This document shows positions 24,661-27,358 of a stretch of 32,857 nucleotides of DNA, piece after piece. Position 1 is the stretch's first letter. Every line of letters begins with the position of its first letter. The DNA comes from Opitutales bacterium. Lineage in GTDB: Bacteria > Verrucomicrobiota > Verrucomicrobiia > Opitutales > JABSRG01. The position numbers and the translations under genes are program-made. The stretch is taken from positions 1-32,857 of the forward strand of contig JANQKZ010000052.1 of NCBI GenBank assembly GCA_028280845.1, given 5' to 3'. The notes under the pieces are model-generated. The model saw only the letters and a list, made by a program, of their open reading frames with translations. It was not told the origin of the DNA and made no database searches.

Positions 24661-25662
24661 TTGGATACCGAAAATATACTGGAAGTTCGCGATCTCGTGA
24701 CCGCCTTCGATACCGATGCGGGGCGGGTCACTGCGGTGGATGGCGTCAGCTTTGACGTCAAACAGGGCAAGACACTCGGCATCGTCGGGGAGTCCGGCTG
24801 CGGAAAGAGTGTCACCGCCCTGAGCGTCATCCGGCTCCTCCCCCAACCCATGGGGGTCATCCTTGACGGGCAGGTCAACTTCAAGGGCAGAGACCTGCAG
24901 CAGGTGTCCGAGGAGGAAATGTACAAAGTCCGGGGTGGCCAGATTGGTATGATTTTTCAGGAACCGATGACCGCCTTAAACCCGGTCCATCGTATTGGAA
25001 AACAGCTCAGCGAAGTCTTCCTCCTCCACATGGATATTTCCAAAAAAGAAGCCTGGGACCGGTCCATTGATATTCTCCAGAAAGTCGGTATCCCGTCTCC
25101 TGAGATTCGGGTCAGCGAATACCCCCACCAGCTCTCCGGGGGCATGCGGCAGCGAGTCGTCATCGCCATGGCCCTTGCCTGCAAACCCGACCTGATTATC
25201 GCCGACGAACCTACCACCGCCCTCGATGTCACTATCCAGGCCCAGATCCTTGAACTCATTGTCGAGCTCCAGGAAGAGATGGGAATGAGCGTAATCCTGA
25301 TTACCCATGACCTCGGGGTCATTGCGGAAACCTGCGATGACGTGGTCGTCATGTATGCCGGCCGGGTCGCCGAAAAGGGGACCGCCGACCAGATTTTCCA
25401 CAATCCTCAACACCTCTATACAAAAGGTCTCCTCAACAGTATTCCACGGCTGGAAAATGAGCGGAAAACCCTCCTGCAAACCATTCCTGGCATGGTGCCC
25501 GGTTTGATGGATTTGCCTGTCGGTGCGCGCTTTGCCCCGCGCAGCCCTCATCCGGATGTAACGGCCTATATGCAGTCCGAAGCCTACCAGACGGTTCGCC
25601 CCGGCTTAGTCGAAGTAGAACCCGGCCACTGGGTCGAAAACGAACGGGTGGTGCGCGTATAA
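24661..25662 (+). CDS. Oligopeptide ABC transporter ATPase, OppD/DppD family (first Yej ATPase)
   Basis: 333 residues from a TTG at 24661, ten bases after the yejA stop; the next in-frame ATG would remove the start of the nucleotide-binding domain. Walker A GESGCGKS is at 43-50, Q-loop [10 protein letters not shown] near 100, signature LSGGMRQRV near 157, Walker B LIIADEP near 180, and H-loop ITHDLGV near 215. The C-terminal oligopeptide-transporter extension is present ([18 protein letters not shown] ... EPGHWV), but the cysteines usual in the CxFxxRC region are absent (GARFAPRS). In Escherichia coli YejF two ATPase domains are fused; here they are separate genes with another gene between them. 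Confidence 0.92.
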
Positions 25663-25705
25663 GCCAAAATCTCCCTCACCATCTTCATCTTCCTTTTCTC
25701 TTTCC

Positions 25706-25728
25706 CCATCTTTTTCTCTTTCCCTTCC
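25706..25728 (+). repeat. Pyrimidine tract, left arm of a possible long-range stem around the four-helix-bundle gene
   Basis: The spacer between the first ATPase gene and the four-helix-bundle gene is almost purely pyrimidine from about 25670. The stretch 25706-25728 is nearly complementary to 26138-26160 at the other end of the gene: 19 of 23 positions pair as Watson-Crick and one more as G-U. Low-complexity pyrimidine/purine tracts pair easily by chance, so this is tentative. Confidence 0.35.
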
Positions 25729-25732
25729 ATCG

Positions 25733-26176
25733 ATGCTCGCTCACGAAAAGTTGATCGCCTACCAGAAAGCAATTTCTTTTTCGGCTTGGAGCGGACAGAT
25801 ATTAGAATCCGTTCCTTCAAGGATTTCAGCGAAAGATCAACTAGATCGGGCATCTACCAGCGTTCCCCTGAATCTTGCAGAGGGTAATGCAAAATTCAGT
25901 GTCAAAGACAAAGCCAGATATCTACAAACTGCGTATGGTTCCGCCCTGGAGTGTTCCGCCTGTCTGGATGTTCTTGAGGCAAGGTCCCTCATCACCCCTG
26001 ATCTATGCGCGGAAGGAAAGCAGCAAATTGAAGGTATCGCCTACCTCATCATGGGACTTCTGAATCGATTAGGTTATCGCTTCAATGAAGAGCAGGCACC
26101 TTACAATGAAAGCCGTATCCTCGAGGAAATGGATAAAGAAAAGGAAAAAGAAAGAGATGCTACGTACTCTGGCTAA
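25733..26176 (+). CDS. S23/IVS-type four-helix bundle protein inserted between the importer ATPase genes
   Basis: 147 residues, mostly helical: LIAYQKAISFSAWSGQILES, then ISAKDQLDRASTSVPLNLAEGNAK, then KARYLQTAYGSALECSACLDVLEA, then GKQQIEGIAYLIMGLLNRL. The order RAS.S.P.N.AEG and the A.GSA.E...L..... segment match the four-helix-bundle family first known from ORFs within 23S rRNA intervening sequences. The role of free-standing members is not established. The C-terminal tail (MDKEKEKERD) is encoded by a purine tract complementary to the pyrimidine tract before the ATG. The gene lies 70 bases after one ATPase gene and three bases before the other, so it is probably co-transcribed. It has no evident link to peptide import and looks like an insertion. 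Confidence 0.85.
   Translation: MLAHEKLIAYQKAISFSAWSGQILESVPSRISAKDQLDRASTSVPLNLAEGNAKFSVKDKARYLQTAYGSALECSACLDVLEARSLITPDLCAEGKQQIEGIAYLIMGLLNRLGYRFNEEQAPYNESRILEEMDKEKEKERDATYSG
26138..26160 (+). repeat. Purine tract, right arm of the possible stem around the four-helix-bundle gene
   Basis: This lies inside the 3' end of the four-helix-bundle gene. Its reverse complement aligns with the 25706-25728 tract. If paired in RNA, the two arms would enclose almost the whole gene, as the ends of rRNA intervening sequences do. Confidence 0.35.
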
Positions 26177-26179
26177 ATC

Positions 26180-27358
26180 ATGACTCCAAAAGAAGCATTC
26201 CAATTCTTCGATCTCTCTACCGAGGCCTCCCCGGAAGATGCCTTCCATGCCTTTGAGCAGCTGAAGACCGAGAAGGCCACCGCCCCGGCTTCGGAAATCA
26301 AGCAGATCGACGCAGCCTATGCGGTACTGGAACGGCACTTTGAATCCCGCAGCTCCAACGACCATCCACCGCCGCTCCTCGAGGTGAAAGACCTGAAGAT
26401 GTATTTCCCCGTCAAAGGCGGCGTCTTCAATACGGCCAAAGCCCAGTGTAAAGCCGTCGACGGAGTGAGCCTCAATATTTTACCTGGGGAAACACTTGGC
26501 CTGGTGGGCGAGTCCGGATGTGGCAAATCTACGCTGGGTAAGTGTGTCGTCAGGCTCAATCAGCCCACTGCGGGCACTATTCAATACAAGGGCAATGACC
26601 TCACGCATTTGAAGCGCGGAGCGCTCAAACCTTTTCGGCGTGATATCCAGATGATTTTCCAGGACCCCGCCGAATCCCTCAATTCCCGGCACTCGATCGC
26701 CAATATTCTGGAAGAGCCTTTTATCATTCACAAGATTGGTACTCCTGCCGAGCGCAGGAAGAAGGTAAAGGACCTCCTCGATGTCGTGGGCTTACCCCAG
26801 AGTGCCGCCGACCGATTCCCCTTTGAATTCTCCGGGGGGCAGCGGCAACGCATCGGTATTGCCCGGTCCCTGGCGCTCAACCCCAAGCTGATTGTCTGCG
26901 ATGAGCCCGTTTCGGCTTTGGACGTCTCGGTCCAGAGCCAGATCCTCAACCTGCTCATGGATTTGCAGAAGGAGTTTCACCTCTCCTACCTGTTCATCGC
27001 CCACGACCTGGCAGTCGTAAAACACATCAGCGATCGTATCGCCATCATGTATCTCGGGAAGATCGTGGAAATGGGTCCTGCTGATGAAATCTATCGGAAC
27101 CCCTTACACGCCTATACCCGGGCTCTGATTTCTGCCATCCCCATCCCGGACCCCCGGACGAAATCCGAGCGGATTATCCTGAAAGGAGATGTTCCCTCCC
27201 CCATCGATCCACCTGAAGGATGTGCCTTTGCCCAACGCAGCTGGATGGAGTGCACCGAAGAGGAGAAAAAACAGCCGGGAGTGTTCAAAGAGGTAAAACC
27301 CGGGCATTGGGTAGAGTTGCATCCGGCTACCGTGGAGAATTATCAGGATTACCTGTAA
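26180..27358 (+). CDS. Oligopeptide ABC transporter ATPase, OppF/DppF family, with extra N-terminal helical domain
   Basis: 392 residues. The OppF-like part begins LLEVKDLKMYFPVKGG near residue 68; Walker A GESGCGKS is at 110-117, Q-loop FQDPAESLNSR near 160, signature FSGGQRQRIGIARSLALNP near 215, Walker B LIVCDEP, and H-loop IAHDLAVV. The C-terminal extension GDVPSPIDPPEGCAFAQRSW ... KPGHWVELHP fits the family. Before it lies a segment of about 60 residues, not normal for OppF (EAFQFFDLSTEASPEDAFHAFEQL ... IDAAYAVLERH), whose spacing resembles a degenerate J-domain without a visible HPD. The ATG is four bases after the preceding gene's stop. It partners the first ATPase to energise YejB/YejE. 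Confidence 0.9.
   Translation: MTPKEAFQFFDLSTEASPEDAFHAFEQLKTEKATAPASEIKQIDAAYAVLERHFESRSSNDHPPPLLEVKDLKMYFPVKGGVFNTAKAQCKAVDGVSLNILPGETLGLVGESGCGKSTLGKCVVRLNQPTAGTIQYKGNDLTHLKRGALKPFRRDIQMIFQDPAESLNSRHSIANILEEPFIIHKIGTPAERRKKVKDLLDVVGLPQSAADRFPFEFSGGQRQRIGIARSLALNPKLIVCDEPVSALDVSVQSQILNLLMDLQKEFHLSYLFIAHDLAVVKHISDRIAIMYLGKIVEMGPADEIYRNPLHAYTRALISAIPIPDPRTKSERIILKGDVPSPIDPPEGCAFAQRSWMECTEEEKKQPGVFKEVKPGHWVELHPATVENYQDYL

Follow-up and report, generated by a model that had tools for sequence, protein, structure and literature searches.

The S23 (IVP) protein is encoded in intervening sequences (IVSs) of rRNA genes, where its presence has long gone unexplained. In the 23S rRNA IVS of Coxiella, a 28-bp terminal stem encloses the S23 ORF, which is preceded by three tandem heptamers (GACAGAT), and RNase III cuts the element in vitro; the S23p encoded there is treated as probably not expressed (PMC4990558). 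The S23p of Xanthomonas is described as a homopentamer of four-helix bundles (PMC4990558), and the corresponding protein family, PF05635, is similar to Avd, a protein of diversity-generating retroelements (PMC10053308). Heptameric G-rich repeats, in Xanthomonas often arranged as convergent inverted pairs, have been reported from Xanthomonas and Nostoc (PMC4692102); they resemble the heptads considered below but were described as repeats only, with S23 or four-helix genes unmentioned in the text. In the open-access literature, no link was found between S23-type genes outside rRNA and complementary repeat arms; subscription papers lay outside the scope of the search, so earlier notice is possible. 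Here, we describe S23-type units with complementary arms, so far known mainly from rRNA genes, which insert at the junctions of operon genes in several bacterial phyla.

The locus from which the analysis started lies in the window (the whole stretch of DNA analyzed, 32,857 nt). The preliminary description, made from the sequence alone, recognized in it a gene of the rRNA IVS family lodged between two ATPase genes, and profile searches bear this out: the ORF scores 72.8 bits against PF05635 (cut-off 33.8) and 65.7 bits against TIGR02436 (cut-off 24), and its neighbors are of the OppD and OppF types (Table 1). A profile built from 17 relatives of the encoded protein matches the structures 2gsc (XCC0516, E=4e-34) and 2rld. 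All three genes share one strand within an oligopeptide transporter operon of the oppB/C-SBP-D-F type, in which two permease genes and a substrate-binding gene precede them, and the oppF start codon is situated 3 nt past the stop of the S23-type ORF. The nearest named relatives of this OppF are Opitutales records. Its N-terminal extension of about 60 aa (26180-26370, MTPKEAFQFFDLSTEASPEDAFHAFEQL...), lacking a Pfam match, precedes the part alignable with the relatives.

Table 1. Features at the oppD–oppF junction of the window.
Feature	Coordinates	Strand	Remarks
oppD-type ATPase gene, left of the insertion	24661..25662	+	PF00005 and oligo_HPY; best NCBIfam match OppD, under cut-off
5' arm, pyrimidine-rich degenerate hexads, from the oppD stop to the ORF	25663..25732	+	6-nt self-match 57%; best-paired part 25697-25733
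S23-type four-helix-bundle (23S_rRNA_IVP) ORF	25733..26176	+	147 aa, stop included; PF05635 E=3e-20, TIGR02436
3' arm, purine-rich, within the C-terminal codons of the ORF (EEMDKEKEKERD)	26121..26157	+	27/37 Watson-Crick pairs with 25697-25733
oppF-type ATPase gene, right of the insertion	26180..27358	+	PF00005 and oligo_HPY; NCBIfam dipeptide/oligopeptide OppF-type, under cut-off

The unit shares with the 23S rRNA IVSs of Coxiella and Leptospira carrying an S23/IVP ORF the protein family, the complementary ends enclosing the ORF (moderate in the window, strong in the family as a whole) and the size of about 0.4-0.5 kb. With its stem and the tandem heptamers upstream of its ORF, the Coxiella IVS has the same layout, the clade of the window being distinguished by hexad arms. 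At the same time, the rRNA IVSs occupy helix 9, 25 or 45 of 23S rRNA, whereas the unit in question sits between oppD and oppF and, like the ten other PF05635 loci of its genome, yields no Rfam match in the searched DNA, the window included. Since it resides in a protein operon, we call it a variant of the 23S IVS and not a member of that class. Nor does it qualify as an autonomous transposon, because the PF05635 ORF is its only gene and a transposase gene is absent from it.

The tracts around the gene were initially noted as nearly complementary between 25706-25728 and 26138-26160, and this pairing comprises 18 Watson-Crick and one G·U of 23 pairs. The best longer gapless pairing, that of the arms listed in Table 1, adds one G·U to its Watson-Crick pairs, and the 5' tract displays a clear 6-nt period, its self-match still reaching 54% at lag 12. 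Taken on its own, this complementarity is moderate (score 17, z 3.4, shuffle p=0.015), being equaled or passed by 8% of the same-geometry control windows from related loci, and could partly be explained by plain pyrimidine/purine composition. In the minimum-energy fold of the 536-nt element the two tracts pair with each other, and shuffled sequences fold about as stably as the whole element (z -0.46). With local significance and fold stability of this order, a verdict from the window alone was set aside as too weakly founded.

In relatives whose OppF is up to 81% identical, oppD and oppF adjoin and the junction is empty. Among 102 measured oppD–oppF junctions elsewhere, 97 are devoid of a large insert and none holds a PF05635-type gene, so the empty site sought in relatives does exist; the possibility that the gene is fixed here in all of them, with flanks that are not conserved as complementary, conflicts both with these junctions and with the family-wide co-varying flanks documented below. 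Divergence from even the nearest relatives prevents the exact ends of the insert in the window from being fixed. The other five junctions, found in four genomes (L047 and L073 apparently belong to one contig), carry different small genes: HicA-HicB, HicB-HicA, PDDEXK_3 (GxxExxY) and an Unstab_antitox gene followed by a short ORF (L045, L073, L079, L081). The short ORF lacks a Pfam match and is read as ParE-like. Because four other genomes carry other small genes at this place, the oppD/oppF junction evidently tolerates various inserts. Flank complementarity is weak at these inserts, the GxxExxY one excepted.

The diversity of the inserts (pairs of the HicAB, HicBA or antitoxin-led kind and a PD-(D/E)XK gene) is in line with the S23-type gene being an ordinary small gene gained by recombination and its tracts low-complexity sequence with no role; the modest local significance in the window agrees with this as well. 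Still, such an explanation was already disfavored, and we regard it as highly improbable in view of the complementarity seen across the family against every control applied (cross-locus, direct-repeat, shuffle, control-window and HicA), of the co-variation of the arms and of the link between their period and the protein clade.

The genome that harbors the window (4.8 Mb, 97.7% complete) contains eleven PF05635 matches, several of which lie at operon junctions (argF/argG, upstream of gcpE, and between CysD-like and CysN-like genes); in one related family, at least one PF05635 gene is present in 81 of 100 genomes. The flanks of these genes are complementary across the gene, and their sequence differs from copy to copy, even within one genome. 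Over 144 distinct PF05635 loci, the mean complementarity score of the 5' versus the 3' flank amounts to 22.3, compared with 12.9 when the same flanks are scored as direct repeats, 12.1 across loci and 12.3 in same-geometry windows of the same loci; the shuffle p value is at most 0.005 in 104 of the 144. The same arms accompany most copies on cyanobacterial plasmids and the Riemerella copy; the Gemmatirosa copy examined lacks them. As a control for small inserted genes, HicA genes of the same genome set displayed no flank complementarity (mean 12-13, median z about 0). Simple low complexity as the cause of the flank pairing is ruled out by the cross-locus, direct-repeat and control-window comparisons. 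Likewise, the arms are no generic trait of small inserted genes, as judged from the HicA control and from the low scores of all other oppD/oppF inserts but the GxxExxY one. The initial observation is thereby confirmed, and on a larger scale than the preliminary description assumed: what sits at oppD/oppF is an IVS-like mobile element housed in an operon of protein-coding genes, and one of many.

Complementary quasi-repeat flanks, often built of CACGGAG units, were also encountered around GxxExxY (PDDEXK_3) genes (L182-L185, L290-L319; median z 7.1 over 34 loci, p of at most 0.005 in 28 of them). These genes resemble the PF05635 loci in having such flanks, but their protein family is unrelated and their repeat units differ (CACGGAG type).

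The complementarity is preserved while the sequence of the arms changes. At eight shared junctions (49 loci), 5' arms match their own 3' partner more closely than the 3' arms of sisters (mean 23.0, permutation p<1/5000), e.g., 27.7 versus 20.5 at a thrC junction and 24.9 versus 18.5 at a liv junction; taken singly, four of the eight junctions are significant at p<0.05. These data support the view of flank complementarity as a conserved property of the family maintained by co-variation. The repeat period of the arms is tied to the protein clade: it equals 6 nt in all 13 scored members of the clade including the window and 7 nt in 91 of the 108 loci outside it, where four period-6 exceptions group together in the tree. 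The Fisher test returns 1e-13 for this association, a value that overstates the certainty because related sequences are not independent.

The best-resolved insertions come from cyanobacterial plasmids. The Nostoc plasmids pC052_D and pNsp_c (about 90-99.7% identity) possess the gene at two neighboring junctions, each empty in the other plasmid; the inserts measure about 417 nt (arms of the GGAGTCA type) and 506 nt (arms of the GGGAAAA type), and both are placed between a stop and a start codon. Three further sites were resolved by comparison with empty plasmids, one insert being located near the 3' end of the upstream gene. The filled and empty plasmid sites show that the arms enter stop/start junctions together with the gene, as a single unit. 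The proposal of a mobile element is supported by the presence or absence of the gene with its arms at single sites of near-identical plasmids, along with the empty junction in relatives of the window. A target-site duplication, the criterion for a DDE-type transposon, was not seen at the filled and empty cyanobacterial sites, a few nucleotides being replaced instead. In eight of the nine annotated plasmid loci, both neighbors point in the direction of the gene; where the strand of the neighbors was judged by ORF length, both were longer in the sense direction in 76 of 144 loci, the annotated plasmids being the better evidence.

Orthologous sites were delineated by strict clustering, and the largest group, which mixed several sites, was split by flanking genes and the tree. 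Some of the sites are monophyletic in the protein tree, i.e., old and vertically inherited, and one shallow, young clade occupies several junctions. Since many of the shared-site insertions are old and inherited vertically, movement is not frequent. The median dN/dS of PF05635 genes between unsaturated pairs is 0.06-0.19 (dS is high), hence the protein is maintained by purifying selection. The members of one site group (S4: L002, L035, L259 and L265) are scattered to four positions in the tree; judging from the flanks, they apparently represent one CysD-like/CysN-like junction and possibly repeated insertion at a single site.

One rival reading is an mRNA version of the rRNA IVS, in which RNase III cuts the stem and the insert is removed from the oppD–oppF message without religation, selection for the cut keeping the arms complementary. 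In its favor, gene family and layout are those of the Coxiella 23S IVS, which RNase III excises in vitro (PMC4990558); genes of one direction surround the clear insertions, so that cutting would do no harm there; and the two tracts are paired with each other in the RNA fold of minimum energy. On the other hand, the fold of the whole element does not surpass shuffles. If selection acted on a sense-RNA stem, G·U would be tolerated more often than A·C. However, an excess of G·U over A·C mismatches in sense-strand arms was not found (75 versus 115), and counting by protein cluster (10 versus 21, p=0.07) weakened the A·C preference of the first pass (p=0.002). The bias is reversed relative to that of a sense-RNA stem in the period-7 clades (112 G·U versus 199 A·C, p=1e-6), and the clade of the window exhibits none (15 versus 13). 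The strand bias in duplex energy is partly shared by control windows. Overall, RNase III cutting may occur but gains no support from the wobble pattern; we consider the mRNA reading possible but rather unlikely. Because the mismatches show no sense-RNA preference for G·U, the pairing of the arms may be important in the DNA, whether in place of the mRNA or in addition to it.

A DNA-level role would be in line with a hairpin element mobilized in trans by Y1 (HUH) transposases, as in REPIN/RAYT or IS200/605 derivatives, with the arms acting as a single-strand DNA fold. Those elements are likewise non-autonomous and hairpin-ended, and the number of PF05635 copies follows that of Y1_Tnp matches in 100 genomes (rho 0.47, or 0.44 with genome size removed, p=5e-6), which is only a hint, as the correlation may mirror the general load of mobile elements. 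Reverse transcriptase counts do not correlate with the gene copy number (rho 0.03), no target-site duplication was seen at the resolved junctions, and the arms bear no wobble signature of sense RNA. Nevertheless, six genomes have the gene but no Y1 match, and the PF05635 unit holds a conserved protein gene in its loop. REP hairpins retain a tag sequence, whereas the arms vary among the copies of one genome. On balance, mobilization specifically by these enzymes seems unlikely.

The affinity of PF05635 to Avd, which has a related four-helix-bundle fold (PMC10053308), raises one more option, a retro-mobile relative whose RNA would be copied by a reverse transcriptase with the four-helix bundle as an accessory protein. 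We deem it very unlikely: no RVT_1 match was obtained in the genome of the window, other parts of a diversity-generating retroelement were not seen there, and 56 of the 81 gene-bearing genomes lack RVT_1. The RVT_1-free genome and the lack of correlation between the counts rule out retro-mobility via a resident reverse transcriptase.

In our opinion, the window probably features one copy of a small mobile unit consisting of a 5' arm, an S23-type gene and a 3' arm, inserted in the sense orientation at oppD/oppF, mobilized in trans and encoding a protein that serves as an arm-binding factor. According to this scheme, the unit, itself devoid of a transposase, would depend on enzymes supplied in trans, and its self-complementary arms, presumably forming a hairpin in the cell, would be recognized as a structure and not as a sequence, with the encoded four-helix bundle (a homopentamer in the solved relative) as the putative binding factor. 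The unit would survive at the stop/start junctions of operons because an insertion at such places disrupts no gene. Once transcribed, the arms could enclose the ORF in a fold that might be cut like the 23S rRNA IVSs, both neighboring ORFs staying intact.

More tentatively, the rRNA IVSs could represent a special case of widespread minimal mobile elements residing mostly at operon junctions and possessing self-complementary arms that evolve in concert, their period (6 or 7 nt) but not their sequence being set by the encoded protein; we see this as slightly less likely than not. The armed layout at operon junctions throughout genomes, together with the empty sites, points to a likely origin of the IVSs and makes both mobility and the role of the protein testable, for instance in harmless laboratory cyanobacteria. 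If true, recognition would be of an unusual kind, with arms whose pairing outlasts changes in their sequence and whose period follows the protein.

Two minor observations concern plasmid records. The Riemerella record labeled as a plasmid (L276, NZ_CP081930.1) contains lepA and sufB, with the four-helix-bundle gene between neighbors, and may be chromosomal DNA. In pNsp_c of Nostoc (L280, 730-980), both arms (GGGAACAG-type) are apparently present without an ORF, suggesting a remnant or an arms-only derivative.
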